The notes below the pieces were generated by a model that had not been told where the DNA came from, did not search any database, and saw only the letters and a list, made by a program, of their open reading frames with translations. The position numbers were made by a program, and so were the translations under genes. From Desulfobacteraceae bacterium (lineage in GTDB: Bacteria > Desulfobacterota > Desulfobacteria > Desulfobacterales > RPRI01), in contig JAABQB010000031.1 of assembly GCA_011391695.1 (NCBI GenBank), forward strand, positions 1 through 34,949: a stretch of 34,949 bases of DNA, read 5' to 3'. Positions 737-33,045 of the stretch are shown piece after piece (positions within the stretch are counted from its first letter, which is position 1; the number at the start of each line of letters is the position of its first letter).

Positions 737-750
737 AAGGATCCATAATA

Positions 751-1235: not shown

Positions 1236-1270
1236 TTCAGGGGATCAGGTGTCAGGGGTCAGGGAGCAGG
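1236..1270. repeat. TCAGGG-rich short repeat between convergent genes
   Basis: GTCAGGG/ATCAGG-type words recur three to four times here (ttcagggg, atcaggtg, tcaggggtcaggg). The sequence lies between two convergent genes, and the last codons (Pro-Ala-Pro-stop) of the - strand gene fall inside it. It resembles the low-complexity intergenic words seen elsewhere in this window. Confidence 0.5.
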
Positions 1271-3874
1271 GATTTCAAGCGGCTGTCCTATAATTTGATT
1301 GATATCATTTCTGAATTTTGATTTGTAATAATTTACCGTTGATTCTCTCGACATTATCATGTCGATTTGTCTCGTGTGCATAGTAAGATACCCGAGAACT
1401 TTCAGACGCTTTTCCATGAAGTCTCTCTCCCTATTGTCAATCCTTGAAAACAGGCTGTCTTTTTTGACGGTTACCTTAAATCCGTACTCTTCAAGTATTT
1501 CAGCCAGAAAGAGGACCCTTTTTAACCTTCGGTCGTGATCAGCGGCTCCACCCTTGAACTGAAAGCTGATGTAATTTTCTCCTACCCTGTCGCAAACAAT
1601 GCTTTCTATGATTGAAAAATGGAAACCGAGCCTCGAGCTTAAGCTGCAAAAGTATTTCGAAATCATAAAATAATTCCGCTGGGCATAAACGCTTCGTGCG
1701 CCTGTTGCCAAAGCAGGATTCCGGGTGGCTTCGAACATAACATTCATAAGCCCTTTTCCATCAACCGGTGGAGGCCCCTCCCATGGAAATGCTGTGATTC
1801 CTTCCCATATTGCTATCATCGGAACGGATACTATATTATTAAAATTGACATATTTGCCGTCAACCTCTTCCCTGAATCCATCATCAAGGTTCAAAATCCA
1901 CCACTGCATCGGAACATCGTAAACAAGCTGCTTTCCGGACCGCTCGGAAAAATTGTGCTCCTTTCCGAAATTAAACATCTCCTGTACCGATTTTTCATGG
2001 ATAAATCGTGTAATGTCATGAAGTGTCTTACATCCCGCCGGCTTGAAATCCCGGGAATCGGGATCTAAAAGATTTAATGGGACTATATATCTGCTTACTT
2101 CTTTTAAGATTTCGTAAACGGGGCTTTCATTCATTAGATTTTTTGTTTTACCGGAAGCGGTTGCAAGCGATTCGATTCTTCCAGCATGGATTGAAAGCCC
2201 GTTTGCATCTACTGTAATAAGGTCGCCATCCTTCAGTTTCTCATAGATCTTTGTAATGCCGAAAATGGCGGGGACGCCGAATTCCCGAGCAACATTTGCC
2301 AGATGTCCTGCAAACCCACCCTGCTCTGTTATTACAGCGGAAGCCCTGCTCAAAAGTGGCGCCCACGCAGGGAGAGCCTGCCTTGCCACAAGAACAGAGC
2401 TTTCAGGAAATCTCAAAATATCGACTGCCTTGTCAACATGAAATACTTTTCCTGAGGCCACGCCCGGACTTGCCGTAACACCTCCCTTAACAATAACTGT
2501 TTCGTCTTTCTTCTCCAGACCGGAAGGGATAATTTTATTGCCGGCTTCTATTATCTGAAGCGGTCGGCATTGAAGCATGTAATAAAATCCGTCATCGGTA
2601 ATTGCCCATTCAATGTCCTGAGGAAGTCCGTAATACTTTTCAATTTTAACTGCCTGCTCGGCAAGGGCGCATGCCTGTTCGGAACTTAAAGACGGCTCAG
2701 CCTGTAATTCTTCCGTTATCTCCATACGGCAAATGCCTTCCTGAGGAAAACATACGAATTTTCTGTTTTTTATTTTTATATCTTTGTGCACGAGGGACAT
2801 GGGTGAATCTCTTGATACTACAAAAAGATCGCAATCAACACTTCCGTCAACAACGGACTTTGGAAGCCCCCAGACCGAGTTAATGAAAATATAATCATCG
2901 CTCATATCAACAGGATTTCTTGAATACATTACACCGCCTGCAACAGCATCCACCATCTCCATGCACCCTACCGACATGTGAACATCTTCATCCCTGAATC
3001 CTCTTTCAAATCTGTATGTTATAGCCGGAAGTGAGTATTTTCCCGCAACCACATTTTTGTAAACTTCAAAAATATTATCCGAGCTTACGTTCAATTCAGA
3101 ATGGTAAAGTCCCGCAAAAGAACTTCCGGCGGAATCTTCTCCTATGGCGCTGCTTCTTAAAGCCAGCCTGATTTTTTTTCCGGCATTTCGTTCAAGTTTT
3201 GCATATGCTTCTTGTATTGCAGTCTTAATCTCTTCCGGAATACCCGCCTTGATAATCGTTTGCCGGATTTTTGCGCTTAAGGTGTAAAGCTGCCCAATAT
3301 CTTCAGTCTCCGTGGATTGAAAAAGGCGTTCTATTTCCGACTGGAGGTCATTGTATGAAATGAATTTCTTATATGCCGCCGCTGTAATAACAAATCCTTC
3401 CGGAACAGTTAAATTGAGTCTGTTTTTCATCTCTCCGATGTTTGCCATCTTACTTCCGATAACATCGGCCATATCTTTATTGACAGAATCAAGAGGTATT
3501 ACAAGTGGTTCATTTTTTTCAGGTTCTTTAAACAAAACAATTTTATCTATCTGTTTCTGAATCTCGGTAAACCCCGAAGAAAGCTCTCTGTATTTTCCCG
3601 GGGCAAGCACTTCGAGATTTTTTATCATTTTATAGACATTTACGGAAACTGCCGTGCAATTACCCTTTATATGTGACATGCCGAAAAGACGACTACCGTC
3701 AAGAAGTTTCTCAATATCCGCCATAATGTCGAGGGCCTTGTTGTTGGAACTGAGTAGAATCTTAAAGCTCTGGTAGCGGGATTTAAAATCATTGCGGAGA
3801 TATTCGGCATCGGACGACGATTCAGGCTGATTTCTTTTCAGGAGTTTATTTATAATTTCCGAGAATTTTATCAT
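1259..3874 (-). CDS. PEP-synthase/PPDK-like protein with non-canonical C-terminal domain (paralogue A)
   Basis: This protein is 871 residues from the ATG at 3874, which is preceded by GAAGG at good spacing. An in-frame start at 3949 lies inside a repeat element and is unlikely. Order of parts: a helical N-terminal region of about 120 residues, then a PPDK_N-type ATP-grasp domain with VPEGFVITAAAY, LRSSAIGEDS..SFAGLY, GVMYSRNP, QDIEWA and MLQCRPL. A swivelling phosphohistidine domain follows with ITEQGGFAGHLANVAREFGVPA; its His is the expected phospho-acceptor. PPDK and PEP synthase then have a PEP-binding TIM barrel, but here about 300 residues of unrecognised sequence follow, containing YISFQFKGGAAD. 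The ATP-loop Gly-Gly-Lys of the family reads Gly-Ser-Lys here. It is the last gene of the TauE/membrane-protein unit. A phosphotransfer or regulatory role is inferred; normal PEP synthase activity is doubtful. Confidence 0.75.
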   Translation of the reverse strand: MIKFSEIINKLLKRNQPESSSDAEYLRNDFKSRYQSFKILLSSNNKALDIMADIEKLLDGSRLFGMSHIKGNCTAVSVNVYKMIKNLEVLAPGKYRELSSGFTEIQKQIDKIVLFKEPEKNEPLVIPLDSVNKDMADVIGSKMANIGEMKNRLNLTVPEGFVITAAAYKKFISYNDLQSEIERLFQSTETEDIGQLYTLSAKIRQTIIKAGIPEEIKTAIQEAYAKLERNAGKKIRLALRSSAIGEDSAGSSFAGLYHSELNVSSDNIFEVYKNVVAGKYSLPAITYRFERGFRDEDVHMSVGCMEMVDAVAGGVMYSRNPVDMSDDYIFINSVWGLPKSVVDGSVDCDLFVVSRDSPMSLVHKDIKIKNRKFVCFPQEGICRMEITEELQAEPSLSSEQACALAEQAVKIEKYYGLPQDIEWAITDDGFYYMLQCRPLQIIEAGNKIIPSGLEKKDETVIVKGGVTASPGVASGKVFHVDKAVDILRFPESSVLVARQALPAWAPLLSRASAVITEQGGFAGHLANVAREFGVPAIFGITKIYEKLKDGDLITVDANGLSIHAGRIESLATASGKTKNLMNESPVYEILKEVSRYIVPLNLLDPDSRDFKPAGCKTLHDITRFIHEKSVQEMFNFGKEHNFSERSGKQLVYDVPMQWWILNLDDGFREEVDGKYVNFNNIVSVPMIAIWEGITAFPWEGPPPVDGKGLMNVMFEATRNPALATGARSVYAQRNYFMISKYFCSLSSRLGFHFSIIESIVCDRVGENYISFQFKGGAADHDRRLKRVLFLAEILEEYGFKVTVKKDSLFSRIDNRERDFMEKRLKVLGYLTMHTRQIDMIMSRESTVNYYKSKFRNDINQIIGQPLEIPAP

Positions 3875-3887
3875 ATTTGATACCTTC

Positions 3888-4007
3888 GTAAAAAGTCCTT
3901 CTCGCACAAAGAGCACTGAGGACACAAAGAATAAACTATATGTTTTCAATAGGTTTTTCTTAGTGCCTTTGTGGCTTCGTGGCTTCGTGTGAAAATTGAC
4001 TTTTTAC
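3888..4007. repeat. MITE-like 120-bp element with perfect 10-bp terminal inverted repeats
   Basis: GTAAAAAGTC at 3888-3897 is the exact reverse complement of GACTTTTTAC at 3998-4007. Inside, the left arm has cacaaagagcactgagg and the right arm has an inverted counterpart made of CACGAAG/CACAAAG words. The middle is AT-rich. It has no coding capacity of its own, although an open frame from the downstream gene extends into it. It sits just upstream of the PEP-synthase-like gene A. Its size and layout suit a non-autonomous mobile element or a dispersed intergenic repeat. Confidence 0.65.
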
Positions 4008-4025
4008 AAGTCCATCATATTGATA

Positions 4026-4076
4026 CAAAAAAAAGGGCCGCAGGTAGATCTATTGGAACTGCCTATAGCCCTTTTT
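4026..4076 (-). terminator. Rho-independent terminator after the 228-aa membrane protein gene
   Basis: Read on the - strand, AAAAAGGGC pairs with GCCCTTTTT. An inner TAGGCAG/CTACCTG stem has one mismatch and one wobble pair, and the run of T follows directly. It lies about 22 nt after the stop codon at 4098, so it probably ends or attenuates the upstream unit before PEP-synthase-like gene A. Confidence 0.7.
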
Positions 4077-4097
4077 GCCTGAAAGAATCAAGAATCA

Positions 4098-4784
4098 TTA
4101 ATGCGATAGTTTTAACCCCCACCCTTCAAACATGAACAGGATGGCAAAGCCGTACCACATTGTATAAACTACGTAAAATACAAGAGAAAAAATGACTATG
4201 CCAAGCTTTTCGGAGATCTTTTGCGGAACGATTTTATAGTAATTGTATGAGCATTCGACTCCCTTTTTCGAAACCGAGCCGAGAAGCTTCATTTCCTTGA
4301 ATTTACTCTGTTTGCCGAACTCTTTGTCCATAACCTTGATTGCCGACCACCAGTTAAACAGGACTTCTTTTTCAGGATAGCCGTATTTTTCAGAAACAAT
4401 GCTGCCATTATTGTTGAACATATTATCCGCATCTTCAAGGCAGTTTTCCAGAATTTTATTAAAATCGCCGCTTATCTTGATTCCGGCTCCGGCCACTTCT
4501 GCGGAAGCCCCGCTCTTTGTGAAGAGAAGAGCTGTTTTTTCAGCCTGCTGCGGGTCTTTCATGGCGATTGTTATTGAAACCGGTTCTGCTTTAAAATCAG
4601 CTACATCTTTTTTGAGTTTCGGAATGTAATATGCCGAACCTTTTGATATGGTATTATATAACGAGTCGAGATAATTTAAAGCGTTTTTCCCTTCGAAAAC
4701 AGGCGAAAACATTATGGCCAGAACAACAAAAAACCCGACCAGCAATGCAAAGCCACCGTAGAATTCCTTTTTATCTGCTATCAT
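4098..4784 (-). CDS. Unidentified two-segment membrane protein linked to TauE/SafE permease
   Basis: This 228-residue protein has an N-terminal membrane segment (GGFALLVGFFVVLAIMF, about residues 10-27), a soluble domain of about 150 residues, and a C-terminal hydrophobic hairpin (LGIVIFSLVFYVVYTMWYGFAILFMF). The central domain would face the periplasm if the termini are cytoplasmic. GAGGAGG precedes the ATG, which overlaps the TauE/SafE stop codon as ATGA, so translation is coupled. This suggests a partner or accessory subunit of that permease. I recognise no family. Confidence 0.65.
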   Translation of the reverse strand: MIADKKEFYGGFALLVGFFVVLAIMFSPVFEGKNALNYLDSLYNTISKGSAYYIPKLKKDVADFKAEPVSITIAMKDPQQAEKTALLFTKSGASAEVAGAGIKISGDFNKILENCLEDADNMFNNNGSIVSEKYGYPEKEVLFNWWSAIKVMDKEFGKQSKFKEMKLLGSVSKKGVECSYNYYKIVPQKISEKLGIVIFSLVFYVVYTMWYGFAILFMFEGWGLKLSH

Positions 4785-6070
4785 GATATTGCCTCCTCTC
4801 CCTTAAGCTTTTTGATATTCATGAGGAAGGTGCTGATTACCCAAATCGCAAAGGTGCTGATCACTATGAAGAAAGACCATATTCCGATCAGATCAAGCCA
4901 CCTGCCGGTCTCCTTGGAGAGTGGAATGAGATCGATGCTTGCAAGTTTGGACGGAAGGGCAAAGAACCTGTTGGTAAAACCGGCAAGAACTGCCATTGCG
5001 TAAAAGCCCCTTATTGTTATTCCTTTTACGACCTTGGTCGCCATTGCTCCCACCTGTATTCCAAGCAGTGAGCCAAGGAGCATTCCCATCGCAAGGGTAT
5101 AAAAAATAAAACCGTAAATAGCATACTGTGAAATTGCGGCATAACCGGCAGTAAAAACAATCTGGAAAATATCGGTGCCGACGGTCGTAAGGGAAGAAAC
5201 GCCGAGAACGTACACGAATATCGGAAAGGTCAGGAATCCGCCTCCGACACCCATAATGGAAGCACAAAAGCCGACAAGGCCTCCGCTTAAAACAAGAAAA
5301 AGAGCCGATATTTTACGCCCTCCGGGTACAATCCCCTGGTCAAAGGTGATCATTGGCGGGATATTCATCGCCTGAAGCTTTCTGGGAAGGTTTCCAAGGT
5401 CTGCGCCTTCCGATTTTCCTCCGTGGGCGCCTCCACCCGCGTCAGGTGCTTTTCTTGCCTTGAGAAAATCATAAAGGGAATACGCACCGAGGATACCGAG
5501 CATCAAAACATATATTACAGTGATGAAGACATCGCTTAATAACGGATTTATATCGTAGATAACCCGGTTTATCACCCCTCCGGTTGTCGCTCCGATCATG
5601 GCGCCGATTAAAAATATTACGGCCAGCGCCACCGAAATATTCCCGAGTTTTCTGTGAATAACGGAACCCATGATTGCCTTGGCAAAAATATGAAAAAGGT
5701 CGGTTCCGACGGCCAGAATACCTTTTATGCCGGCGCTCATCAGAGCGGGAGCGATAATGAAACCGCCGCCAGCGCCGATACATCCTGTAATAAGTCCGGC
5801 GCCTATGCCGATAAGAATGGAAGCAATAAAAATACCCGTCGTAAAAAAAGCGGGGCTGTAAGCTGTTTTGCCTCCCAGAAACTCAGGAAGAGCCACTCCG
5901 AGCTGATCTGCAAAAGCAAACCCACCCAGAATAACAGGGATAATCAAAAGTCCCAGAACCGCCAGCCTTTTCTTGCTCCCCAGAATGGTATTCGAGACAT
6001 CAATTTCCCACTGCGCATGGGCCCTTGCGCCCAGCATCATGAAATTCCCCCATTGTTTGAAAAAGTTCAT
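4781..6070 (-). CDS. TauE/SafE-family sulfite/organosulfonate exporter-like permease (long form)
   Basis: This 429-residue multi-pass inner-membrane protein has the twofold pseudo-repeat of the TauE/SafE (DUF81) family. The first half has TGCIGAGGGFIIAPALM...AVGTDLF and the second has ASIMGVGGGFLTFPIFV...TVGTDIF. The two halves are joined by a hydrophilic loop of about 50 residues rich in Gly/Lys (RKAPDAGGGAHGGKSEG). It is longer than typical family members of 250-300 residues, with about 65 extra N-terminal residues including a hydrophobic segment. Family members move sulfite, sulfoacetate or related anions; the substrate cannot be read from sequence. GGAGG precedes the ATG. A sigma-54-like promoter lies about 70 nt upstream, and an overlapping membrane-protein gene follows. 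Confidence 0.85.
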   Translation of the reverse strand: MNFFKQWGNFMMLGARAHAQWEIDVSNTILGSKKRLAVLGLLIIPVILGGFAFADQLGVALPEFLGGKTAYSPAFFTTGIFIASILIGIGAGLITGCIGAGGGFIIAPALMSAGIKGILAVGTDLFHIFAKAIMGSVIHRKLGNISVALAVIFLIGAMIGATTGGVINRVIYDINPLLSDVFITVIYVLMLGILGAYSLYDFLKARKAPDAGGGAHGGKSEGADLGNLPRKLQAMNIPPMITFDQGIVPGGRKISALFLVLSGGLVGFCASIMGVGGGFLTFPIFVYVLGVSSLTTVGTDIFQIVFTAGYAAISQYAIYGFIFYTLAMGMLLGSLLGIQVGAMATKVVKGITIRGFYAMAVLAGFTNRFFALPSKLASIDLIPLSKETGRWLDLIGIWSFFIVISTFAIWVISTFLMNIKKLKGEEAIS

Positions 6071-6139
6071 TCCTCGTTACCTCCAATTTTGTAAATTTTA
6101 TGGTCTTTTCGAAAAGCGCCTGAAGAACAGCCTGTAAAC

Positions 6140-6155
6140 AGCAACTAATATGCCA
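6140..6155 (-). promoter_or_regulatory. Putative sigma-54 promoter for TauE/SafE unit
   Basis: On the - strand the sequence reads TGGCATATTAGTTGCT. It matches the TGGCAC-N5-TTGCW consensus with one substitution (T for C at the end of the -24 box) and exact GG/GC spacing. The expected transcription start lies near 6129, giving a 5' leader of about 60 nt before the ATG at 6070. The 224-nt gap that contains it (6071-6294) holds no other recognised feature. Confidence 0.6.
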
Positions 6156-6294
6156 TAATCGGGATAGGGATTAATAAATATGCGAAGAGGTTGAAATTAA
6201 AGGTAATTTTAAGTCAATAAAATATCAGGCAGATCTATCGGGGAAAAAGGTGTCAGTTTTATTTACAGGTTGTAAAATGTATTGAATATATCGT

Positions 6295-8892
6295 CTAGTT
6301 GCATGCAATTATTTTCTCAAGATTATAATTTCCTTCAAGAAAATTTTTAGCCAGAATTTCAATACTGGCTTCATTGATCATCAGCATATCCATCTGCCGG
6401 GTAAACTGAAGAAGCCGCCCAACAAAGTCGAGTTTTTCCTCCATAAGATGCAGTTCATGTTTTTGATACCTGGCGTTAATCCTGTCTCCCGAGACCTCTG
6501 TGGTAAAATCAAGAGACTGAAGTATCCTTGCGATAGCTCTTACACGCCTGTTTTTCCTGATATCATCTGCGGCGCCTCCCTTGAAAGAGAAGGATATGTA
6601 ATTCATATTAACGGTTCTGCTGCAATAGGAATCGATGACACTGTAATGATATCCGACGCGGGAGCTGAAATTGAGATATTTATCTGAAATAATGGCATAA
6701 CTGCGGTCTCCGAATCTTTCAGCAGCCGATGGAGGCGAGAGCATCTGTTCTCTCATGACGGATAGAAATCCTTTAAACTCCACGGGACGACACTGGTTTT
6801 GCTGGAAATCCCTGTTCATCAATCCATTGAGAAGCGCTTTTAACGGAACAGAAGTGATATTATCAGGAGATATGCTGTTTAGATTTATATTCTTTTCCGT
6901 AACGCCGGATCCTAAATCGATAACATACAGGTCAAGCGGTATATTGACTTTTAATTTAAAAGCCATTCCCTTTTTATCGGAGATAAAATCGCTCAGTTTA
7001 AACATCTCGGTATACGAAAATTCATGTACCAGCCGGCTGATGTCGTGAAGGGTCCGGCAGGAGGAAGGGGCAAAATCAGGCGATGCCGGATCAAGAAGAT
7101 AGAGAGGTACGATCCAATCGCTTATCTCTCGCAGAATTCTGTATACAGGTGTTTCCTTCATTGGAAATCCTCCTGTCTTCTGGAAAACTTCCAATTCATG
7201 CACCTTTCCCTGATATACTCTCCCAGAATAAGCATCGACGGTGACTTCCATGCCGGCCGGGATGACGGAGGTAGCTACATCGGTACTTACAATGGTTGGA
7301 ATGGCAAATTCTCTGGCAAGAGTCGCCATATGCCCTGCTATGTTTCCCTTATCGGTAATAATTGCCCTGGTTTTTTTCATTACCATCGCTATCTTGGGAG
7401 AGGAATGCCTTGCAACAAGGACGGCTCCGTCAGGAAACTTAAGAAGGTCATCCTCTGAAGATACATGAAAAGCCGGTCCGAAACCTATCCCGCCTGAAAC
7501 AGTCACTCCCTTTTCGATCAACAAGGGGTATCCTGGCAGTACAGGGGAGGCAGGATACCTTTTCCCTGCATCTTCGGCGCGCAGAGGACGGCTCTGCAAT
7601 ATGAAAAGGGTTCCGTTTCTGTCAAGCGCCCATTCAATATCCTGGGGGCACCCGTAATGCTCCTCAAGTTTACGGGCATAGCCTGCAAGAACGGCGATAT
7701 TTTCTGCCGAAAGAGAAGGCTTCTCCACTAGATCATCAGCCACAGGAATTTCAGTCAATCCACCTTCCGGTTTACTAATCAATTGAACTGTTTTTCGGGA
7801 GATCTCCGAAGATAATGTACGGCCGTCTTTTCCAACCGTGTAAACATCAGGTGTAATGACTCCGTCAACGGCATAAGGCCCCAGACCCCAAACTGCCGTT
7901 ATTATGATATTATCCTCCAGGATGTTGAGAGGGTTTCTTGAATACATAACGCCGCTGGCAACCGATTCGACCATTTGAATACAGGCCACGCTCATGGCAA
8001 TATCTTCATCTCTGATTCCTTTGTTGAGCCTGTAAGCTATAGCGCTCGGAGTGTAAAGACTGGCTAATATTTCTTTATAGGTTGTTATCAGTTGTTCCTG
8101 CGGCACATTTAATTTTGACAGGTATTGGCCGGCAAAGGATAACTCGCTGTCCTCTCCTATAGCGCTGCTCCTCATCGATACCCGCATGAAAGTGCCGGGA
8201 CTTTTCCCGTATGCGGTCTTATCGGCAAGTTTTGCATAGGCAAGCATGATGGCTTCTTCTATTGCTGGAGGGACATCTGCAGAAATGATCAATTCCCTGA
8301 TATCGTCGCTTATTTTTTTGACTGTATCGGGATCGTCAGGATCTATTTCCATCTTTTTCTTGCTTACTTTATCAAAGAGATCCGTACTGAACAGAAATGA
8401 CTCAAAAGCTTTTGTGGTTATTGCAAATCCTTCCGGGATCGGGAGTCCGATCCTGCTTTCTATTTCACCCAGATTCGCATTTTTACCCCCAACCCAGTCG
8501 ATCATCTCCGCATTTATCTCAGAATAAGGTAAAATAAGCTCCGATATGGAAACCTCTTTTTTTCTGTTGAGAATCTCCTTGATTTTCAGGTCTATATTTT
8601 CGAGAACTTCAAAAAGCCGGGAGTAACGGTGGCCTGAGATGTCGTCTAAATTTTTTATCATGCGAAGGGCATGGAAAACAGCTTTGGCAGATCTCGTTCT
8701 GACATAAGACATGCCGAATACCTGTTCACCGCACAGTTTTTCTTCCAAATCAGTTATTACGTTCAAAAATTCGGAATTCGAATCGAGCAGCATTTTGAAA
8801 CAGGAATATTTAAAACGGAACAGATCCGGCAGGCTATTTTCTGAAGGAGATTTTTTTTGTGATTTATCACGCTTAAAAAGCTTCTTGAACAT
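6295..8892 (-). CDS. PEP-synthase/PPDK-like protein with non-canonical C-terminal domain (paralogue B)
   Basis: This 865-residue paralogue of the gene at 1259-3874 is collinear with it over the full length. The ATP-grasp domain is intact: VGGKNANLGEI, IPEGFAITTKAF, MRSSAIGEDSELSFAGQY, GVMYSRNPL, QDIEWALD, ILQSRPL. The phosphohistidine domain has ITDKGNIAGHMATLAREFAIPT. Instead of the PEP-binding barrel, the last 300 residues carry the same unknown domain as paralogue A (YISFSFKGGAADDIRKNRR, then LMEEKLDFVGRLLQFTRQMDMLM). The N-terminal 110 residues are helical and Lys-rich. Its ATG overlaps the stop of an upstream receiver gene as TAATG, so the two are translationally coupled and probably act together. 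Autophosphorylation by ATP is plausible; synthesis of PEP is doubtful. Confidence 0.77.
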   Translation of the reverse strand: MFKKLFKRDKSQKKSPSENSLPDLFRFKYSCFKMLLDSNSEFLNVITDLEEKLCGEQVFGMSYVRTRSAKAVFHALRMIKNLDDISGHRYSRLFEVLENIDLKIKEILNRKKEVSISELILPYSEINAEMIDWVGGKNANLGEIESRIGLPIPEGFAITTKAFESFLFSTDLFDKVSKKKMEIDPDDPDTVKKISDDIRELIISADVPPAIEEAIMLAYAKLADKTAYGKSPGTFMRVSMRSSAIGEDSELSFAGQYLSKLNVPQEQLITTYKEILASLYTPSAIAYRLNKGIRDEDIAMSVACIQMVESVASGVMYSRNPLNILEDNIIITAVWGLGPYAVDGVITPDVYTVGKDGRTLSSEISRKTVQLISKPEGGLTEIPVADDLVEKPSLSAENIAVLAGYARKLEEHYGCPQDIEWALDRNGTLFILQSRPLRAEDAGKRYPASPVLPGYPLLIEKGVTVSGGIGFGPAFHVSSEDDLLKFPDGAVLVARHSSPKIAMVMKKTRAIITDKGNIAGHMATLAREFAIPTIVSTDVATSVIPAGMEVTVDAYSGRVYQGKVHELEVFQKTGGFPMKETPVYRILREISDWIVPLYLLDPASPDFAPSSCRTLHDISRLVHEFSYTEMFKLSDFISDKKGMAFKLKVNIPLDLYVIDLGSGVTEKNINLNSISPDNITSVPLKALLNGLMNRDFQQNQCRPVEFKGFLSVMREQMLSPPSAAERFGDRSYAIISDKYLNFSSRVGYHYSVIDSYCSRTVNMNYISFSFKGGAADDIRKNRRVRAIARILQSLDFTTEVSGDRINARYQKHELHLMEEKLDFVGRLLQFTRQMDMLMINEASIEILAKNFLEGNYNLEKIIACN

Positions 8893-9308: not shown

Positions 9309-9435
9309 ATAAACCTATTTATACATGAATATTGATTTAATACAAGTCGGCAGCCTAATATCTAATGCGGATTACCCGCACAGCGCAAGTTGTCGTTTGC
9401 CGTTTTTGTATCCGGAGGATTAAGCGCGAAGCCTT

Positions 9436-10218: not shown

Positions 10219-10241
10219 ATCTACGCAACCACTGCAAAGGG

Positions 10242-10320: not shown

Positions 10321-10326
10321 TATCTT

Positions 10327-10953: not shown

Positions 10954-10954
10954 G

Positions 10955-12010: not shown

Positions 12011-12062
12011 AATTTATCCTCCTGATGTTATTTTAAAATCAAATTTTTTACTGGCGGAAATT

Positions 12063-12359
12063 TTAATGTTCGGACAACTCCCTCGACTTAAGATCAATGC
12101 CAATGCGTGACATAACCAGGTCCGCCAGAAGACCAAGAAGAACCCCGATAATCGGGATGGCTATTACAGTGACAATTGTAAAGTATATATGACTCTCATT
12201 GTAAAGATTGGCAAACCATGCTTCCCATCCGGATAGTTTGCGGGTATCAGCCACAATCACAAGAAGGGAAGCCTTTTCTCCTGCAGCCAGAACAAGCTCC
12301 GGAATAACCAGCATTGCCGTGGCTGCCACACCTGTCAGTTTTGTCCATAATTTAAACAT
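12063..12359 (-). CDS. Small two-segment membrane protein upstream of TauE/SafE permease
   Basis: This 98-residue protein has an N-terminal hydrophobic segment that could be a signal anchor or cleavable signal (GVAATAMLVIPELVLAAGE; cleavage after LAA is plausible). A short polar segment follows (ADTRKLSGWEAWFANLYNES), then a second membrane segment (IYFTIVTVIAIPIIGVLLGLLADLVM). AGGAG precedes the ATG. It sits between a universal stress protein gene and the permease gene, all in one direction. It is probably a small subunit or stabiliser of the permease; I know no family name. Confidence 0.65.
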   Translation of the reverse strand: MFKLWTKLTGVAATAMLVIPELVLAAGEKASLLVIVADTRKLSGWEAWFANLYNESHIYFTIVTVIAIPIIGVLLGLLADLVMSRIGIDLKSRELSEH

Positions 12360-12377
12360 TTTTTTAATCTCCTTTAC

Positions 12378-12791
12378 TTATTGTATTATGCTAACACTGC
12401 ACGGGGCATGCGCCACCACCTTAGCCGCTGTGCTGCCTGTCATAGCCCGTTCTATTCCGGTTAGACCGGTTCTTCCCATAAGGATGAGATCGAATTTGTC
12501 CTCTTTCGCTCTCCTTATAATATTGTTTGCCGGAACCACACCAGTCTCAAGAATGGTTTTAATCTTTATCCCCTTTCCGTCAAATATAGCTTTCGCGCTG
12601 TTAAGGGCATCCTTTGCCTGTTTTTCCAGCTTCTCCTGGATACTTGGGGGCATGTCATCGAAGTCGCTCTTGGAGAAATAAGCCACAGACATGAGCGTTA
12701 CCTCCGCCCCTTCTTTTTCGGCCAGCTCAAGAGCCCGTTTTACGGCTTTCATTGAGTGTTCCGAACCGTCTGTTGCTGTCAATACCTTCAT
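12378..12791 (-). CDS. Universal stress protein, UspA family
   Basis: This 137-residue protein starts at the ATG at 12791, which has a perfect AAGGAGG site; an upstream in-frame ATG at 12818 is less likely. The fold is recognisable from MKVLTATDGSEHSMKAVKRALELA at the N-terminus and LILMGRTGLTGIERAMTGSTAAKVVAHAPCSVSII at the C-terminus. The GxTG-x9-GST pattern is the ATP-binding motif of nucleotide-binding Usp proteins. It probably acts in the cytoplasm as a stress or energy-state sensor. Its position between a receiver gene and the permease module suggests it couples the signalling part to the transport part. Confidence 0.9.
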   Translation of the reverse strand: MKVLTATDGSEHSMKAVKRALELAEKEGAEVTLMSVAYFSKSDFDDMPPSIQEKLEKQAKDALNSAKAIFDGKGIKIKTILETGVVPANNIIRRAKEDKFDLILMGRTGLTGIERAMTGSTAAKVVAHAPCSVSIIQ

Positions 12792-12865
12792 AAGCACCTC
12801 CTTTATATTTGAATTCATTCAGAATTTATCATCTCCCGGATCTTTGCGCCGCGAATCTTTTGTTC

Positions 12866-13285
12866 CTAAGTAATATTCTTTTCAAAAGCGGCGATCAGTT
12901 TCTCCAGGTGAGCATTCTTCTTGTCAAAAGCGGCTAGCAGTTTCTCCAGAAGTTCCGCAAATTTTACAGGTTTCAGCAGATAATCAAAGGCGCCTGATTT
13001 CATTCCCTCCATGCTGGTTTCAATTGATGCGTGTCCGGTAAGGAGAATTACCTCGGTCGAAGGCTGAATTTTTTTGATTTCCCTCAAGATCTCTATGCCG
13101 TCCATTCCGCCCGGCATCTTGATATCCAGCAAAACAACATCAAAATTATTTTCCTTCATCAAAGAAAGAGCCTTCTCTCCGCTGGGAACACCCGTTGCAT
13201 CAATATTTCTTTTCAGCAATCGGTTGACGATTGTTTCTAAAAAATCCGTTTCATCATCTACAATTAAAACCCGGAAGGTTTCCAT
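12866..13285 (-). CDS. Single-domain response regulator with duplicated C-terminal coiled segment
   Basis: This 139-residue receiver is read from the ATG at 13285, which leaves 5 nt after GGAGG; the adjoining ATG at 13288 is too close. The acidic pair is Asp10-Asp11, the phospho-acceptor is Asp54 (VVLLDIKMPGG), then LLTGHAS and LLKPVK. There is no output domain. The tail contains a tandem pair LEKLLAAFDKKNA / LEKLIAAFEKN, encoded by a near-perfect 42-bp-period DNA duplication. The gene directly follows a Cache histidine kinase gene, which is its likely phosphodonor. Confidence 0.88.
   Translation of the reverse strand: METFRVLIVDDETDFLETIVNRLLKRNIDATGVPSGEKALSLMKENNFDVVLLDIKMPGGMDGIEILREIKKIQPSTEVILLTGHASIETSMEGMKSGAFDYLLKPVKFAELLEKLLAAFDKKNAHLEKLIAAFEKNIT
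12882..12949. repeat. Tandem duplication with 42-bp period inside receiver gene
   Basis: The 26-nt blocks at 12882-12907 and 12924-12949 differ at only two positions (24 of 26 identical). The period is 42 nt, exactly 14 codons, so the reading frame is kept and a short amphipathic helix is duplicated at the receiver's C-terminus. Confidence 0.8.
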
Positions 13286-13295
13286 CATAACCTCC

Positions 13296-14957
13296 TTATT
13301 TCTTCTCCGGAACAACAACAGGTAATCTCACGGTAAATGTCGTTCCTTTTCCTTCTTCGCTGTCGAGATCGATAGTGCCTCCCATGCTGCTGACAAGGGT
13401 GTAGGTGACCGAGAGACCGAGACCTGTTCCCTTGCCTGATTGTTTTGTGGTAAAAAAGGGTTCAAAAACCCGTGACTGATATTCTTTGGGGATCCCGGGG
13501 CCGTTGTCTCTTACACTGATTGCAATCTCCGAATCGATCCTGCGGCTGGTTAGATGAACGTTCCCATCTTTGCCTATCGCGTCAACAGCATTGGTTAAAA
13601 GGTTCAGAAATACCTGCTGCAGCTGGGCGCGGTCACTGGCAATTATGGGCAGATCGGTTTCAAGCTCTTTTTCTATCACAATGTTATTTGTCCGGGCATA
13701 GCTTTCAAGAAAAGACATTGTCTGGGTCAGGACTTCGTTGATATCCACATCCTCCAGATGCGGCTCCATCCTGCGGGCAAATCCAAGCATGCCGTGGATT
13801 ACTTTTCTTGCTCTCTCGACGTGTTCCTCTATTTTTCCGAGCGATTTTTTATACTCGGCAAAATGCTGGCTCTTCTGAAAATCCTCCTCGGTCAGGAGAT
13901 CCTCCATCCAGCCTGTTTTTTCGGCAATCACGGCAAGGGGATTGTTGATTTCGTGGGCAACACCGGCGGCCATCTTGCCCAGAGCAGCCAGTTTATCCGA
14001 ATGGACGAGTTGTGCGTTCAATTCGTTCACCTCCCTGTCCGCCGTTTCCAGTCGCCTTATTGTCAGGTGGGTGGTAAAGTAAGTTGTGAGGATGATCATC
14101 AAACAACCGAGGGCAACTATAACAATTTCTATTCTTTTCGTTTTGAACAGCTTGGTCATCTCTTCCGATGCATCCTGGCTTATTACCAGAAGCCAGCTGT
14201 TTTTTTTCAGCCAGCGCGCCGCATATAATATCTTTTTGCCGTCCTTGTCCGCCTTTTCCAGTACTGTTGTTCCCTCTCCGAAGAGAGTGGGATCAAGATG
14301 TGATTTGGAAAGAATTTCACCGCCAAAACGAAGAAGTGTCTGATAAGAGCCCTCCTTGTTGATAATAAAAGCGTCGCCTGTTTTTCCAACCTGTGCCGCA
14401 CGGACGAGACTTTCAAAAACATCAGAGTCTATGGTCGCCCTCAGTATCCATCTTCTGTTATTCTCCTGACGCTGAAGAGCGATAATGAAATGGGGTACCT
14501 GCCTGTAACCCAAGAAGACATCGCTGATATAAACACCCTTGCTTTCAACCTCACGGAACCACGGTTGTGAATAGTAGTTCAGGCTGATAAGGTTGTAAGG
14601 GCCTACGTAAGCTATTTGACGGCCGGTGCTGTCAATCAGGCCAAGATCTATAAAACCGCCGACCCGGTGGTTCATTATCTGAAAAATTCTTTCTAATTTG
14701 TTCTTCTCAGCCAGGTAATCAAAAGTATAAGTATCGGCCATGGCCAACAGAATGGCGGTTCGTTCCTTCAGAAAAAGTTCTATTGCATTGCTTTGGACCC
14801 TGGCGCGATATTCAATCTGCTCTTCAATTTTATTCCTGAAAACCTGGGTAAACTGGTAGTAAATTATAACACTAAGAGAGATAAGGGGTATAAATGAAAC
14901 CAGCAGGGTGATGAAAATTATCTTTCTCTGAAGGTTCGCATATATCTGTCTTTTCAT
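13296..14957 (-). CDS. Membrane sensor histidine kinase with Cache-type sensor (second kinase)
   Basis: This 553-residue protein has membrane segment 1 at about residues 13-34 and an extracytoplasmic dCache-like domain at about 40-270 with GLIDSTGRQIAYVGPY, YISDVFLGYRQVPHFIIAL and RATIDSDVF. Membrane segment 2 is at about 276-297. The HisKA dimerisation domain contains the phospho-acceptor His335 (AAGVAHEINNP). The ATPase domain has NLLTNAVDAI (N box), DNGPGIP (G1) and GKGTGLGLS (G2). All catalytic motifs are intact. The ATG follows AGGGG, and the gene starts 1 nt after the receiver stop upstream. It is a clear paralogue of the kinase at 16244-17941 and lacks PAS and attached receiver domains. 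Cache sensors bind small extracellular metabolites; the ligand is unknown. Confidence 0.92.
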   Translation of the reverse strand: MKRQIYANLQRKIIFITLLVSFIPLISLSVIIYYQFTQVFRNKIEEQIEYRARVQSNAIELFLKERTAILLAMADTYTFDYLAEKNKLERIFQIMNHRVGGFIDLGLIDSTGRQIAYVGPYNLISLNYYSQPWFREVESKGVYISDVFLGYRQVPHFIIALQRQENNRRWILRATIDSDVFESLVRAAQVGKTGDAFIINKEGSYQTLLRFGGEILSKSHLDPTLFGEGTTVLEKADKDGKKILYAARWLKKNSWLLVISQDASEEMTKLFKTKRIEIVIVALGCLMIILTTYFTTHLTIRRLETADREVNELNAQLVHSDKLAALGKMAAGVAHEINNPLAVIAEKTGWMEDLLTEEDFQKSQHFAEYKKSLGKIEEHVERARKVIHGMLGFARRMEPHLEDVDINEVLTQTMSFLESYARTNNIVIEKELETDLPIIASDRAQLQQVFLNLLTNAVDAIGKDGNVHLTSRRIDSEIAISVRDNGPGIPKEYQSRVFEPFFTTKQSGKGTGLGLSVTYTLVSSMGGTIDLDSEEGKGTTFTVRLPVVVPEKK

Positions 14958-14958
14958 A

Positions 14959-15384
14959 TCAACCCCTTTCAGGTGTTTCTTCCTCTTCCAGACGTTTTAT
15001 CTTCTGTTCCTGAATTTTTTTTCTTTTGAAAGCGTCTTCAAGTTTATATAATAATTCGTCCACACCGGTCGGTTTCATCAGGTAATCAAAAGCCCCCATC
15101 TCCATTCCTTCTACGGCAACTTCCAGATTGGCATGCCCTGTAAGCATTATCACTTCAACCAGAGGCTTAAGTTTTTTGATTTCCCGCAACGTCTGTATGC
15201 CATCCATGCCCTGCATCTTTACATCGAGCACAACGACATCGGGCGGAGTCTCTCTGATAATCTTCAATGCCTCTTCACCGTTGTTTGCGCCTGTTACCTT
15301 AATTTTCCGTTTCAACAGTCTTTTAACCAGTGTTTCCAGAAACTCTCTTTCGTCATCTACGAGCAGGACATTGAATTCATACAT
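14959..15384 (-). CDS. Single-domain response regulator
   Basis: This 141-residue receiver is read from the ATG at 15384 with GGAGG 8 nt upstream. Motifs: VDDEREFLETL (Asp10-Asp11), VVVLDVKMQGMDG (Asp54), MLTGHAN, YLMKPTGVDELL. A highly charged tail (KRKKIQEQKIKRLEEEETPERG) may be a short coiled coil for partner binding. It ends one base before the next histidine kinase gene, so kinase and receiver are translationally linked. No DNA-binding or enzymatic output domain is present. Confidence 0.88.
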   Translation of the reverse strand: MYEFNVLLVDDEREFLETLVKRLLKRKIKVTGANNGEEALKIIRETPPDVVVLDVKMQGMDGIQTLREIKKLKPLVEVIMLTGHANLEVAVEGMEMGAFDYLMKPTGVDELLYKLEDAFKRKKIQEQKIKRLEEEETPERG

Positions 15385-15397
15385 CTGAATCGCCTCC

Positions 15398-15790
15398 TTA
15401 TTTACCAAGAACCTGTTTGATTTTTCTGACAAGTTCTTCAAAATCACATGGCTTTGTCAGATATTCCACGGCGCCACTTTTAATACCTTCTCTTGCCGCA
15501 TTCTCATCGCCATGGCCGGTCAGTATTATTACCGGAAGATCCGGAGTCATCTTTCCTAGTATTTTAATAACCTCAATCCCGTCCATCTCTTCCATCTTAA
15601 GATCAACGACAGCTATATCAAAATCAGCTTTACGCAAGGCCTGAAGCGCTTCAGGGCCTGAAAAAGTTTTTATCACGTCGAAACCCCTCTTCGAGAGTCT
15701 TTTAGCCATAACATTGACAAAACCTTTTTCATCGTCCACAAAGAGCAGCCTGATAATGTCCGGATTATGATTGGGTCTAAAATCTGACAT
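15398..15790 (-). CDS. Single-domain response regulator
   Basis: This 130-residue receiver starts at the ATG at 15790 with an AGGTG site. An alternative GTG at 15799 directly follows the upstream stop. Motifs: FVDDEKGFVNVM, AVVDLKMEEMDG (phospho-acceptor Asp), ILTGHGDENAAREG, YLTKPCDFEEL. It ends within a few residues of the receiver fold and has no tail. It is the middle of three receivers in a row between the two kinases. Confidence 0.87.
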   Translation of the reverse strand: MSDFRPNHNPDIIRLLFVDDEKGFVNVMAKRLSKRGFDVIKTFSGPEALQALRKADFDIAVVDLKMEEMDGIEVIKILGKMTPDLPVIILTGHGDENAAREGIKSGAVEYLTKPCDFEELVRKIKQVLGK

Positions 15791-15799
15791 TTTTTGCAC

Positions 15800-16231
15800 C
15801 TAAATACGACTCACAGTGATTTTTTTAAGTTCTGCCTCTATAATTTTTTCCTCATGCCTCCTTTTTTTCATGGCGGCTTCACGTACCTTTGATACAAGCT
15901 GCTCCATGTCGCAGGGCTTCATAAGATAATCAAAAGCTCCGAGCTTCATTCCTTCTATGGCAGACTCGATTGTTGCATGACCTGTAAGCATGATAACCTC
16001 AACAAGCGGAAACCTCTGCCTGATTATCTTCAATGCGGAAAGCCCATCCATTTCCGGCATTTTAACATCAAGAATTACAACTTCTATAAGGCTGTTGATT
16101 TCAAGCATCCTTATAGCCTCGGGAGCGCCTGACGCCGATTCCGTAATGAATTCTCTTTTAGTCAGACGCTTTGTCATAGTTTCAAGAAAAGGAATTTCAT
16201 CATCCACAAGAAGTATATTCGCTATTGCCAT
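15800..16231 (-). CDS. Single-domain response regulator
   Basis: This 143-residue receiver has a GGAGG site before ATG 16231. Motifs: NILLVDDEIPFLET, VVILDVKMPEMDG, MLTGHATIESAIEG, YLMKPCDMEQL. A Lys/Glu-rich helical tail (KKRRHEEKIIEAELKK) follows. It lies 12 nt downstream of the first Cache histidine kinase gene, its likely phosphodonor. It is close in sequence to the other receivers of the cluster, which suggests local duplication. Confidence 0.88.
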   Translation of the reverse strand: MAIANILLVDDEIPFLETMTKRLTKREFITESASGAPEAIRMLEINSLIEVVILDVKMPEMDGLSALKIIRQRFPLVEVIMLTGHATIESAIEGMKLGAFDYLMKPCDMEQLVSKVREAAMKKRRHEEKIIEAELKKITVSRI

Positions 16232-16243
16232 TGTTAATCCTCC

Positions 16244-17941
16244 TTAATTGTTTTTTTTGAAGGGAAGCCGCACATGAAATGTTGTTCCTGCATCGATAAC
16301 GCTGCTAACAGTTATTTCTCCACCCATCTCCTTTATGATTCCGTAACATATAGAGAGCCCCAATCCGGTTCCTTTTCCTACAGGCTTCGTGGTAAAAAAC
16401 GGATCGAATATTCTGCCAAGATTAACCTTTGGAATTCCAGGGCCATCATCTTCAACTCTTATTACTACCTCGTTACCTTCCAGATCGCTTGTCACGGTTA
16501 TATTTCCGCCTTTATTTCCTTCCAGTGCATCCATGGCATTGTTCAAAAGGTTGAGCAAAACCTGCTGTAGTTCGGAATTCGAAAGTTGCATTACCGGCAG
16601 ATTCTCCTGAAGTTTTGAATTTATGACTACGTTGCCGAATTTTGCCCTCTGGGCACAAAAGCCGATTACCTCTTTAATAAGCTCATTTATTGTTACATCC
16701 TCTGAAGATGTGACGGTTTTTCGAGCAAAGCTTAAGAGTTTCTGGGTTATCTCTCTGCAGCGTTTCCCCTGTGTTTTAATCTGGGCAAGTGCTCTTTCAA
16801 TCTCGTCTCTATTCTCTTTGCTAACAAGCCGCTCATCTTCCATAAGGTCATTCACCCAGCCTGCTTCTTCTACCATTATGGCAACAGGGTTGTTAATTTC
16901 ATGTGCAATCCCTGACGCAAGCTCACCAAGTGATGCCAGTTTCCCGGTTTCAATCACCTGCTGGTTCATAAGCTCCTTTTCCCAGTCGGCCTTTGCAATT
17001 TTGGTTACCATCCATCTTGACAGCAAAAAAGACGTTACAATGATAACAATGCCACCCATAAAAATGATAAAAATAGCCGCCTCTTTGGCTTGGTTAAGAT
17101 CCGCAAAAGCATCGGATTTGTCCTGCCGATATATAAGAATCCAGTCTTCGTTTTTTATCAGGGATGCCACATAGATATTCTCACTTCCGGAGTCATCTGC
17201 TATTTCCGAAAAGAAAAGCCCGTCTTTTGTCTTTCTGCCGGCTTTTATCGATTCATAGAAAGAATATGGTTTTCTATGAGTTACTTCAAAGAATGGTTTC
17301 GACTGAAACTCTCCCTTGCTGTTTAATATGAATGCAAAGCCGGTTTCCCCTATCCGGAGATTTTCAACAAGGGAGTTGAAAGCAGCAAAATTTATTGTTG
17401 CCCTCAATATCCAGGGTGTTCCGTTATTTTTAAGCCTTACCGTGATAATAAAATGCGGTGTTCCCCTCAGGCCCAAAAAAACATCGCTTATGAAGTAGTC
17501 GCTGTTGATTGCCTTCCTGAACCACTCAGAGTTTGAATAACTGGCCTTTTCCAGCTTGAAAGGACCTGCATATGTAACCTGGATTCCCTCTTCATTTATA
17601 AATCCAAGATCTTCAAAAACCGAACCGTATTCCGTCTGAAGCGCCGCGAGATTATTTCTCAGAAATTTTTCATTCTTCAGATCTTCAATGTCGAAGGACT
17701 TTGCCATAAATCTGATATTATTCAACTTTTCCACTAAAAAACCGTCTATGTTCTGCCTGTGTTTTAAAACAAGTTCACCGAGATGCGCATATAACTTTTC
17801 ATTATGGGATATACTAAACCGGTTTAACATGGAGCCGCTCACCACTAACATAGGAGCAAAAGATACGGCTATGGCGATAAAAACCATTTTATTTATCAAC
17901 GACCTATAATAAGGATTTTTCAGAAGGCTTCTCTGGTTCAT
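16244..17941 (-). CDS. Membrane sensor histidine kinase with Cache-type sensor (first kinase)
   Basis: This 565-residue protein has membrane segment 1 at about residues 19-39. A dCache-like periplasmic domain at about 45-280 has GFINEEGIQVTYAGPF, YFISDVFLGLRGTPHFIITV and RATINFAAF. Membrane segment 2 is at about 289-308. His347 (ASGIAHEINNP) is in the dimerisation helix. The ATPase boxes are NLLNNAMDAL, DDGPGIP and GKGTGLGLS. The domain layout and the YISDVFLG/PHFII sensor motif match the kinase at 13296-14957, so the two arose by duplication. Its ATG overlaps the upstream receiver-like stop codon (ATGA) with a GAGGATAT site. All motifs needed for catalysis are present. Confidence 0.92.
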   Translation of the reverse strand: MNQRSLLKNPYYRSLINKMVFIAIAVSFAPMLVVSGSMLNRFSISHNEKLYAHLGELVLKHRQNIDGFLVEKLNNIRFMAKSFDIEDLKNEKFLRNNLAALQTEYGSVFEDLGFINEEGIQVTYAGPFKLEKASYSNSEWFRKAINSDYFISDVFLGLRGTPHFIITVRLKNNGTPWILRATINFAAFNSLVENLRIGETGFAFILNSKGEFQSKPFFEVTHRKPYSFYESIKAGRKTKDGLFFSEIADDSGSENIYVASLIKNEDWILIYRQDKSDAFADLNQAKEAAIFIIFMGGIVIIVTSFLLSRWMVTKIAKADWEKELMNQQVIETGKLASLGELASGIAHEINNPVAIMVEEAGWVNDLMEDERLVSKENRDEIERALAQIKTQGKRCREITQKLLSFARKTVTSSEDVTINELIKEVIGFCAQRAKFGNVVINSKLQENLPVMQLSNSELQQVLLNLLNNAMDALEGNKGGNITVTSDLEGNEVVIRVEDDGPGIPKVNLGRIFDPFFTTKPVGKGTGLGLSICYGIIKEMGGEITVSSVIDAGTTFHVRLPFKKNN

Positions 17942-18354
17942 GACCGCATATCCTCTGATTCCAATTTTGCATTATCTGTCTCACCGCTCTTGCTTAAAAT
18001 TTCAGAAACTACTTTTTTAAGCTTTTCAACGCTGCTTCCTCCCTTTTCGACAAATTCTGTCGGATCAATAATTTTGGAGGCAATCATATACTCTGAAAAA
18101 TAAGTATGAAAAATTACAGGTATATAGGGAATTCTCTGCCTGAGTTTTTTCAACAATAAAGATTCTTCGGCATCAGGCAAATCCGGGTCCAGGATTAAAA
18201 GATCCGCGGGTTCGCGATGATATGCCCACTTCAGCACTTCCCGGCCGTTATCAGCCAGTTCGACTGAATAGCCTTCAGCCAGCATTTCACGTCTTAAAAA
18301 TTCCCTCACATGGGAATTTCTGTCTGCTATTAATATCTTATATATTTTCTTCAT
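17938..18354 (-). CDS. Divergent receiver-domain protein, first gene of the signalling unit
   Basis: This 138-residue protein has the receiver layout but altered residues. The usual acidic pair is reduced to a single Asp11 followed by Arg-Asn (ILIADRNSHV). The phospho-acceptor position is kept as Asp56 (LLILDPDLP). The switch Thr lies in VIFHTYFS and the conserved Lys in FVEKGG. Loss of one metal-coordinating acid suggests weak or altered phosphorylation, perhaps constitutive protein binding. The acidic/Ser-rich tail (KSGETDNAKLESEDMRS) is unstructured. It is the promoter-proximal gene behind a sigma-54-like site, and its stop overlaps the kinase start. Confidence 0.78.
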   Translation of the reverse strand: MKKIYKILIADRNSHVREFLRREMLAEGYSVELADNGREVLKWAYHREPADLLILDPDLPDAEESLLLKKLRQRIPYIPVIFHTYFSEYMIASKIIDPTEFVEKGGSSVEKLKKVVSEILSKSGETDNAKLESEDMRS

Positions 18355-18392
18355 ATATAGTTCTTAATGATTCGTTTTAGATACTAATGATG

Positions 18393-18408
18393 AGCAAGGT
18401 ATGTGCCA
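18393..18408 (-). promoter_or_regulatory. Putative sigma-54 promoter at head of the signalling cluster
   Basis: The - strand reads TGGCACATACCTTGCT, a full match to TGGCAC-N5-TTGCW with correct spacing. The predicted start site near 18382 gives a leader of about 28 nt before the ATG at 18354. Sigma-54 transcription would need an AAA+ activator; none is encoded in this window. Confidence 0.75.
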
Positions 18409-32963: not shown

Positions 32964-33045
32964 TTTTAATGAAAATCTTCAGTCTGTGTTAATAAATACT
33001 GTCAAACGCTTAATACCTTCACTCTCTCTGAACACAGAATGCTCT

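Follow-up and report, generated by a model that had tools for sequence, protein, structure and literature searches.

The window analysed here, a 34,949-nucleotide stretch of contig JAABQB010000031.1 (positions 1 to 34,949) from a Desulfobacteraceae bacterium, contains a cluster of 17 genes transcribed from the minus strand (1259–18354). The cluster encodes two Cache-domain histidine kinases (HK1, HK2), six stand-alone receivers (REC1–REC6), a UspA-type protein, two TauE/SafE permeases with small partner proteins, a lipoprotein, and two paralogous proteins, PepA and PepB, that resemble phosphoenolpyruvate (PEP) synthase and end in a new C-terminal domain. The grouping of such PEP-like genes with transporter and signalling genes is not a product of chance and recurs within and beyond the phylum. 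We tentatively favour a pathway that runs from kinase to receiver to PEP-like phosphotransferase to an anion permease, probably acting in uptake. The gene list given by a first-pass annotation of the sequence is correct, the gene calls were confirmed, and Pfam and NCBIfam bear out the domains of all cluster genes that match a family; the small membrane protein sm228 and the protein hyp281 match neither database.

Conservation of the gene neighbourhood

The C-terminal domain is present in 58 of 148 genomes sampled across the phylum (41 of 116 genera), with up to 12 matches per genome, and also in metagenome-assembled genomes (MAGs) titled Nitrospirae, Zixibacteriota, Bacteroidetes/Ignavibacteria, Acidobacteria, Omnitrophota, and Chitinivibrionia. 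There are 184 domain matches in total, and regions were taken around the listed matches only, giving 120 regions from 54 of the 58 positive genomes. These contain 150 distinct PEP-like genes; the main figures rest on 108 of them, each flanked by 12 kb or more, and leave out the other 42. Genes outside the window were labelled with our own iterated profile hidden Markov models, and ten neighbour proteins were checked against Pfam. Twenty windows on PEP-carrying contigs served as controls; 18 were chosen at random, and the other two were positioned manually because the random picks they replaced overlapped PEP-like loci.

Within 9 kb of the 108 PEP-like genes there is a TauE gene in 63 cases, a DASS gene in 21, and one or the other in 78; a histidine kinase is present in 87, a stand-alone receiver in 86, and a kinase, a receiver, and a TauE or DASS gene together in 63. 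The corresponding counts in the 20 control windows are 1 for TauE, 2 for DASS, 3 for histidine kinases, and 2 for receivers. If all 150 PEP-like genes are included, those with short flanks among them, the numbers are 79 for TauE, 26 for DASS, and 111 for receivers. Because the sampled genomes are related, the count was also made by family, and 24 of 26 families show transporter, kinase, and receiver together at least once. We also examined 42 relative loci with varying flank lengths and dropped two that have no open reading frame with the PEP-like C-terminus; the remaining 40 include 30 with TauE or DASS, 27 with a histidine kinase, 23 with receivers, and 20 with all three. Relatives of the small proteins follow the same genes: sm228 relatives lie within 9 kb of 25 of the 150 PEP-like genes and hyp281 relatives within 9 kb of 21, and both are absent from all 20 control windows. 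Genomes with the domain have a mean of 6.9 TauE genes (n = 58) compared with 2.5 in those without it (n = 90), figures that are uncorrected for relatedness. Comparison of neighbourhoods had been named beforehand as a way to challenge the first-pass proposal that these genes form a system kept together, and it came out in favour of that proposal.

Receivers are the commonest labelled direct neighbours of 144 PEP-like genes (31 upstream, 23 downstream), and in 50 of the 144 a receiver gene is directly adjacent on the same strand. Both acidic residues and the phosphorylated aspartate are kept in 48 of 48 aligned receivers that adjoin PEP-like genes. This adjacency supports the earlier suggestion that the PEP-synthase-like protein is a likely output of the receivers.

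Five types of transporter module recur, with named neighbours checked by example against Pfam. Three contain TauE, together with sm228, with DVU0150-type, DUF4881, and hyp281 proteins, or with an Alph_Pro_TM protein; the fourth has DASS and a CBS-domain protein, and the fifth is a nitrate-cluster type with a binding protein and a phosphatase. An example of the fourth type is at L134:9998–12067 (L numbers designate loci), where a DASS (Na_sulph_symp) symporter and a CBS-domain protein adjoin the PEP-like gene, a pair that recurs elsewhere. On a tree of 188 PEP-like proteins, in which 112 are labelled and the 76 unlabelled are not counted, the transporter-module type switches 18 times compared with 57–72 times in 200 shuffles. 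Of the 96 PEP-linked TauE proteins, 85 fall into a single TauE clade that also includes six of the 28 others, although these others are mostly top Pfam scorers with only ~1.5 kb of flank and some may be linked further out. The small number of switches and the TauE clade together indicate that PEP-like lineages tend to stay with one kind of transporter. TauE1 and TauE2 share PF01925 with the TauE/SafE (TSUP) permeases (117 and 141 bits; gathering score 32.6) but, unlike that family at large, belong to this clade of mostly PEP-linked proteins (85 linked, six without a known link).

Architecture of PepA and PepB

PepB (6295–8892) and PepA (1259–3949) are 38% identical; the ATG at 3874 is the likelier PepA start than the TTG at 3949, as judged from the family alignment. 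Both contain PPDK_N (E = 2e-91 in PepA and 3e-93 in PepB) and PEP-utilizers (2e-19 and 3e-17) domains in Pfam. PepB is organized as a helical N-domain (residues 1–118), an ATP-grasp domain (132–442), a swivel histidine domain (486–557, with His521), and the C-terminal domain (~566–865). All 45 sequences of a first set have the ATP-grasp residues K137, R241, E420, Q433, and R435 and the swivel residue H521, and in the larger set of 188 each of these is kept in 179 to 186 proteins; we take these to be the catalytic residues of PEP synthase and RPH. The helical N-domain is modelled as three helices (pLDDT 86.8). Its structural matches are generic helix hairpins only, which speak neither for nor against a docking domain of the histidine phosphotransfer type.

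The similarity to known enzymes is confined to the ATP-grasp and swivel domains, with solved PEP synthases aligning to PepB within residues 115–567 at most. The PEP-utilizers_C barrel has no match in PepA or PepB (Pfam, E up to 1), and it is likewise missing from the Pfam families listed across 45 C-terminal domains. PepA and PepB score 365 and 368 bits against a PEP synthase cut-off of 598 (NF005057) and 351 and 354 against one of 740 (TIGR01418), and the rifampin phosphotransferase model NF041857 gives 227 bits against a cut-off of 999. The acceptor or substrate domain of RPH sits between the ATP-grasp and swivel domains, whereas the extra domain of PepA and PepB comes after the swivel, and only ~43 residues separate their ATP-grasp and swivel domains. 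PEP synthase, RPH, and phosphotransferase system (PTS) enzyme I were each ruled out as family names by domain make-up and cut-offs. PepA and PepB have the ATP-grasp and swivel histidine domains in common with PpsA but are without its PEP/pyruvate barrel and have the extra helical N-domain and new C-terminal domain. RPH and HpeHI likewise combine ATP-grasp and swivel histidine domains with acceptors other than pyruvate, and HpeHI, as described in the relevant parts of PMC12167813, establishes that small-molecule dikinases of this kind exist.

The C-terminal domain is ~300 residues long and takes the place of the PEP barrel. Across 45 sequences it has 12 invariant positions, of which eight hold polar residues, and D617, H749, G773, R783, and D835 are identical in 188 of 188 proteins. 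Scanning of 45 such domains revealed no Pfam family common to two members, and a profile search of the PDB gave a best E-value of 0.017, which is not meaningful. With a fair structural model (pLDDT 82.5, pTM 0.72), Foldseek found no match at E up to 0.001, and VIA gave no clear match above background (best Z 5.3, root-mean-square deviation 4.1 over 104 residues).

Six PEP-like proteins have lost ATP-site residues but keep the listed C-terminal residues with at most one exception. Four of these (L175:5463, L179:5390, L227:5277, and L230:10780) have K-to-A, E-to-T, Q-to-M or L, and swivel H-to-R changes together. An intact paralogue adjoins all six in the same locus, and in L175, L179, and L230 the genes are arranged PEP-like, kinase, receiver, PEP-like. 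Apparent residue losses in L228, L234, and L238 are left out of this count, as these genes may be truncated or have mis-assigned starts. The degenerate copies suggest that the C-terminal domain has some function independent of self-phosphorylation, possibly within a mixed oligomer.

Two other variations occur among the PEP-like genes. The loci of the PEP-like, kinase, receiver, PEP-like arrangement at L175:2231–5353 and L230:13810–16959 adjoin flagellar export genes coding for a FliH-type protein and a FliI-type ATPase. Four PEP-like proteins of ~1050 residues (L237:7571–10732, L238:6723–9881, L231:7298–10759, and L241:228–3425) have an extra C-terminal extension of ~200 residues, and two of them have a galactocerebrosidase lectin-domain match below the Pfam cut-off.

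Gene order and putative promoters

The host draft genome is 2.8 Mb and 98% complete, and carries a sigma-54 gene and dsrA, the latter making dissimilatory sulfite or sulfate metabolism likely. The cluster begins with REC1 (17938–18354; PF00072, 2.7e-12), which overlaps HK1 (16244–17941) by 4 nt. REC2 (15800–16231), REC3 (15398–15799), and REC4 (14959–15447) follow, and then HK2 (13296–14957) and REC5 (12866–13318); the true starts of REC4 and REC5 may be further in. HK1 and HK2 each contain dCache_1 (1.4e-23 and 6.5e-16, respectively), HisKA, and HATPase_c domains and are 36% identical over 559 aligned positions, in agreement with their description as paralogous Cache kinases. All six receivers are PF00072 proteins standing alone, so the first-pass observation that they are without an output domain stands. 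The phosphorylated aspartate, threonine, and lysine are present in all six, and the acidic pair is partly lost in REC1, which has an arginine at one position. The kinases with HisKA and HATPase domains and the receivers with phospho-aspartate sites identify these as two-component proteins.

The cluster continues with the UspA-type gene (12378–12818; PF00582, 2.2e-28), a DVU0150-family small membrane protein gene (12063–12359; NF040783, 132 bits against a cut-off of 70), TauE2 (10955–12010; PF01925, 8.6e-41), and the DUF4881 lipoprotein gene (10327–10995; PF16222, 2.1e-74), which has a lipobox by reading and a start that may be further in. Next are hyp281 (9436–10281), which recurs with DUF4881, REC6 (8892–9308; PF00072, 7.1e-30), and PepB, which overlaps REC6 by 1 nt. 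TauE1, a long form of 429 residues (4781–6070; PF01925, 1e-33), overlaps its small membrane partner sm228 (4098–4784) by 4 nt, and PepA is last. These overlaps agree with the 1–4 nt overlaps reported in the first-pass annotation.

Gene order and comparison with relatives suggest that the cluster is best explained as a signalling-and-transport module of one kind that is present twice, the two copies lying end to end. Module B contains the genes from the DVU0150-type gene to PepB (DVU0150-type, TauE2, DUF4881, hyp281, REC6, PepB) and is the same in L011; module A contains TauE1, sm228, and PepA and is the same in L019, L021, L024, and L043. The two are joined in L009 as in the window, with TauE1, sm228, and PepA coming after PepB. 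Both Cache kinases and the remaining receivers probably serve the two modules alike. The closest PepB relatives among the matches listed are on three MAG contigs with 81–83% identity, titled Proteobacteria (L008), Thermodesulfobacteriota (L009), and Desulfobacterales (L011).

Two sigma-54-like −24/−12 sites are present on the minus strand. One, TGGCACATACCTTGCT (18393–18408), is upstream of REC1 and is the sole match in the window with no mismatch; the other, TGGCATATTAGTTGCT (6140–6155), is upstream of TauE1 and has one mismatch. The REC1 site is identical letter for letter in L011, and the TauE1 site in L009. The second site points to a pair of transcription units instead of a single one. 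The first-pass annotation had proposed sigma-54-like promoters for the cluster, which holds for these two sites only; loose scans of the window find matches only at the level expected by chance (17 found and 16.8 expected; 10 found and 9.4 expected), and no sites are claimed beyond the two. Across loci, exact matches to the motif number 17 in 2013 kb, three in 720 kb, and one in 390 kb of control, counts that are too few to argue from.

Several other genes are recognizable elsewhere in the window. Two small single-domain cyclic-nucleotide-binding proteins (230–1233, plus strand) are encoded convergently with PepA and have relatives in L009, which has a PepA gene. A ZnuA-type zinc-binding protein gene is followed by genes for an ABC ATPase and a permease, the last two assigned by reading (24791–27350, plus strand). 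An AbiEii-type nucleotidyltransferase gene (30151–31421, minus strand) is overlapped by an upstream gene resembling its antitoxin, by reading only and with no Pfam match. An IrrE-like metallopeptidase (M78) gene and a HigB-type toxin gene are followed by a likely HigA antitoxin gene, the last by reading only (32340–34182, plus strand).

Desulfovibrio relatives and proposed working

A nitrate cluster of Desulfovibrio (DVU0251–DVU0245 / Dde_0597–0605), as described in the parts of Korte et al. (2014, PMC4001038) that deal with it, resembles the window in containing a TauE permease, a conserved hypothetical protein, a histidine kinase, a single receiver, and a protein with pyruvate phosphate dikinase (PPDK)-type ATP-binding and PEP mobile domains. 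It differs in its additional genes for a binding protein of the phosphonate type and a dual-specificity phosphatase. It also has only one kinase and one receiver, compared with two kinases and six receivers in the window cluster, which moreover has its permeases and PEP-like proteins in pairs. The binding protein and phosphatase have no Pfam match among the 17 cluster genes; both are present in the Desulfovibrionaceae loci L035 and L056, in which genes for TauE, a small membrane protein, the binding protein, a histidine kinase, a receiver, a PEP-like protein, and the phosphatase lie on one strand. The PEP-like proteins of L035 and L056 carry the new C-terminal domain.

Transposon mutants of DVU0251 (TauE), DVU0250, DVU0247 (receiver), and DVU0246 (PPDK-like) grow equally with and without 100 mM nitrate, but in nitrite they have no growth advantage over the control; for the listed homologues in strain G20, every mutant has positive fitness in nitrate (PMC4001038). 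A leaky thiosulfate transporter is the explanation that the authors put forward, with reference to mild defects on thiosulfate that are unpublished (PMC4001038). If D. vulgaris shares the order of L035 and L056, polarity is a poor explanation of the receiver and PEP-like phenotypes.

A second related set of genes, DVU0150–DVU0146, is a sigma-54 operon under activator DVU0151 that is assigned to 'transmembrane transport', with the substrates of such transporters given as unknown (Kazakov et al. 2015, PMC4641369). It shares with the window a DVU0150-family gene and a sigma-54-like promoter, and the passages of that paper on the operon mention no PEP-like protein. The window differs in having its sigma-54-like sites before REC1 and TauE1 and not before the DVU0150-type gene, and its 17 cluster proteins include no Sigma54_activat match that would indicate a DVU0151-type activator. 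The other DVU0150–DVU0146 genes presumably match TauE2 and DUF4881. Five loci (L174, L176, L183, L185, and L194) have a DVU0150-TauE-DUF4881-hyp281 row that keeps the order of module B and diverges from a gene for a sigma-54 activator, after which comes a PEP-like gene, an arrangement that ties the PEP-like family to the DVU0150-type regulon. A Desulfovibrio magneticus TauE gene needed for magnetosomes was considered as a further relative and set aside, there being no link to PEP-like genes in the parts of PMC4287615 concerned.

ATP-grasp/swivel enzymes, receivers, and TauE permeases are individually known. Their joint occurrence with the new C-terminal domain has just two counterparts in the literature searched, the unexplained nitrate cluster and, for part of the set, the DVU0150 operon. 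No paper was found there that treats the PEP-like family as a system, and PMC4001038 was the only one joining 'pyruvate phosphate dikinase', 'sulfite exporter', and 'response regulator'. The first-pass statement that no such system had been described was almost right, since the papers at most guess a function and do not name the family, but the nitrate cluster already has the core composition (PMC4001038, PMC4641369, in the sections on these genes).

In the pathway that we favour, the periplasmic Cache domains would bind an outside metabolite or anion, and the kinases, with their catalytic residues in place, would phosphorylate the single-domain receivers. A phosphorylated receiver would then bind and switch PepA or PepB, as gene adjacency and the shared phenotype of the Desulfovibrio relative suggest. 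PepA and PepB, given their kept residues, are predicted to phosphorylate their swivel histidine with ATP in the manner of PEP synthase, and would hand the phosphate on to an acceptor at the conserved C-terminal domain, whereupon the paired anion permease, probably an importer and the putative final target, would become active. A more ambitious proposal, which we consider doubtful, is a new class of two-component output. Here the single-domain receivers would govern a phospho-histidine enzyme that is driven by ATP, and the hitherto unrecognized C-terminal domain of this enzyme would phosphorylate or gate an anion permease dedicated to it. Such a system would be the equivalent of the regulatory PTS with ATP as its power source, and in some genomes the dead copies would serve as regulatory subunits of a heteromer.

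A number of observations weigh against the favoured pathway. No fusion of a receiver, kinase, TauE, or Usp to a PEP-like protein was found in the loci examined. Thirty of the 108 PEP-like genes have no TauE or DASS within 9 kb, and L148, L151, L175, L179, and L230 have a PEP-like, kinase, receiver, PEP-like arrangement with neither transporter inside that distance; in L131 and L132, TauE sits just past the limit. Near such genes no other shared transporter family stood out, either in a scan that covered 73 of the 142 neighbours without a label, as judged from the first 25 of its 65 families, or among ten hand-picked neighbours. Sigma-54-like sites elsewhere precede few of the genes concerned (6 of 103 TauE, 2 of 209 receivers, and 6 of 28 DVU0150-type). 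In the Desulfovibrio data, pooled fitness is negative for DVU0250 and DVU0245, with pooled and single-mutant tests of DVU0250 disagreeing; preliminary data give a single mutant of DVU0248, a kinase gene annotated as a pseudogene, little or no advantage; and the DVU0245 mutant is still nitrate-sensitive (PMC4001038, sections on these mutants). The presence of the new C-terminal domain in DVU0246 is inferred from the gene order and domains of L035 and L056 and not from its own sequence.

The main rival is metabolic trapping, in which PepA and PepB are dikinases that phosphorylate the imported anion or a metabolite derived from it, the C-terminal domain forms the substrate pocket, in the way that the substrate-binding portions of HpeHI and RPH do, and the kinases and receivers regulate the pathway. 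Small-molecule dikinases such as HpeHI use the same ATP-grasp and swivel histidine machinery (PMC12167813, in the relevant parts), the invariant polar C-terminal residues resemble an active site, and PEP-like clades follow transporter type as substrate specificity would predict. However, trapping would not obviously cause nitrate sensitivity, nor make loss of the receiver or PEP-like protein equivalent to loss of the permease; no catabolic gene family is prominent among the recurring neighbours in the clusters inspected, and the four paralogues without the ATP and histidine residues still keep those of the C-terminal domain. On balance we regard trapping as possible but unlikely. A sensor-controlled exporter of sulfite, a sulfonate, or another sulfur anion, close to what the first-pass annotation proposed, is improbable. 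The Pfam name of TauE is 'sulfite exporter' and the organism has dsrA, but that name says nothing of direction or substrate, and the PEP-like family also occurs in phyla beyond Desulfobacterota and, in other clades, with DASS symporters of the Na+:sulfate/citrate type. The nitrate resistance of the relative's mutants moreover fits anion entry, and the leaky thiosulfate transporter is its authors' own proposal (PMC4001038, in the sections cited), so that the export claim is not sustained.

It is similarly hard to credit a swivel-domain phosphorelay, in which the phospho-histidine of PepA or PepB gives phosphate to or takes it from the neighbouring receivers and the PEP-like protein is an ATP-fed input. 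Receivers are the commonest labelled direct neighbours and both partners retain their phospho-acceptor residues, but kinases are already present in most loci and we know of no precedent for such a relay; the H-to-R paralogues adjoin an intact copy and so carry no weight either way. That the signalling, transport, and PEP-like genes are mere neighbours in unrelated units would suit the division of the cluster by two sigma-54-like sites and the 30 PEP-like genes without a nearby transporter, but this view is largely refuted by the neighbourhood counts, with recurrence in 24 of 26 families and several phyla and near-absence from the control windows, and we give it very little credence.

The PEP-like proteins constitute a large family of enzyme-like proteins that has no name so far and is linked to sensing and to the transport of anions, with a new candidate acceptor domain for phosphotransfer of the PEP synthase type. 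The proposed pathway offers a testable answer to the role of receivers that are without an output domain. Such a system would help to account for the nitrate cluster, called 'poorly annotated', on which the nitrate tolerance of two sulfate reducers depends; this tolerance bears on the control of oil-field souring.

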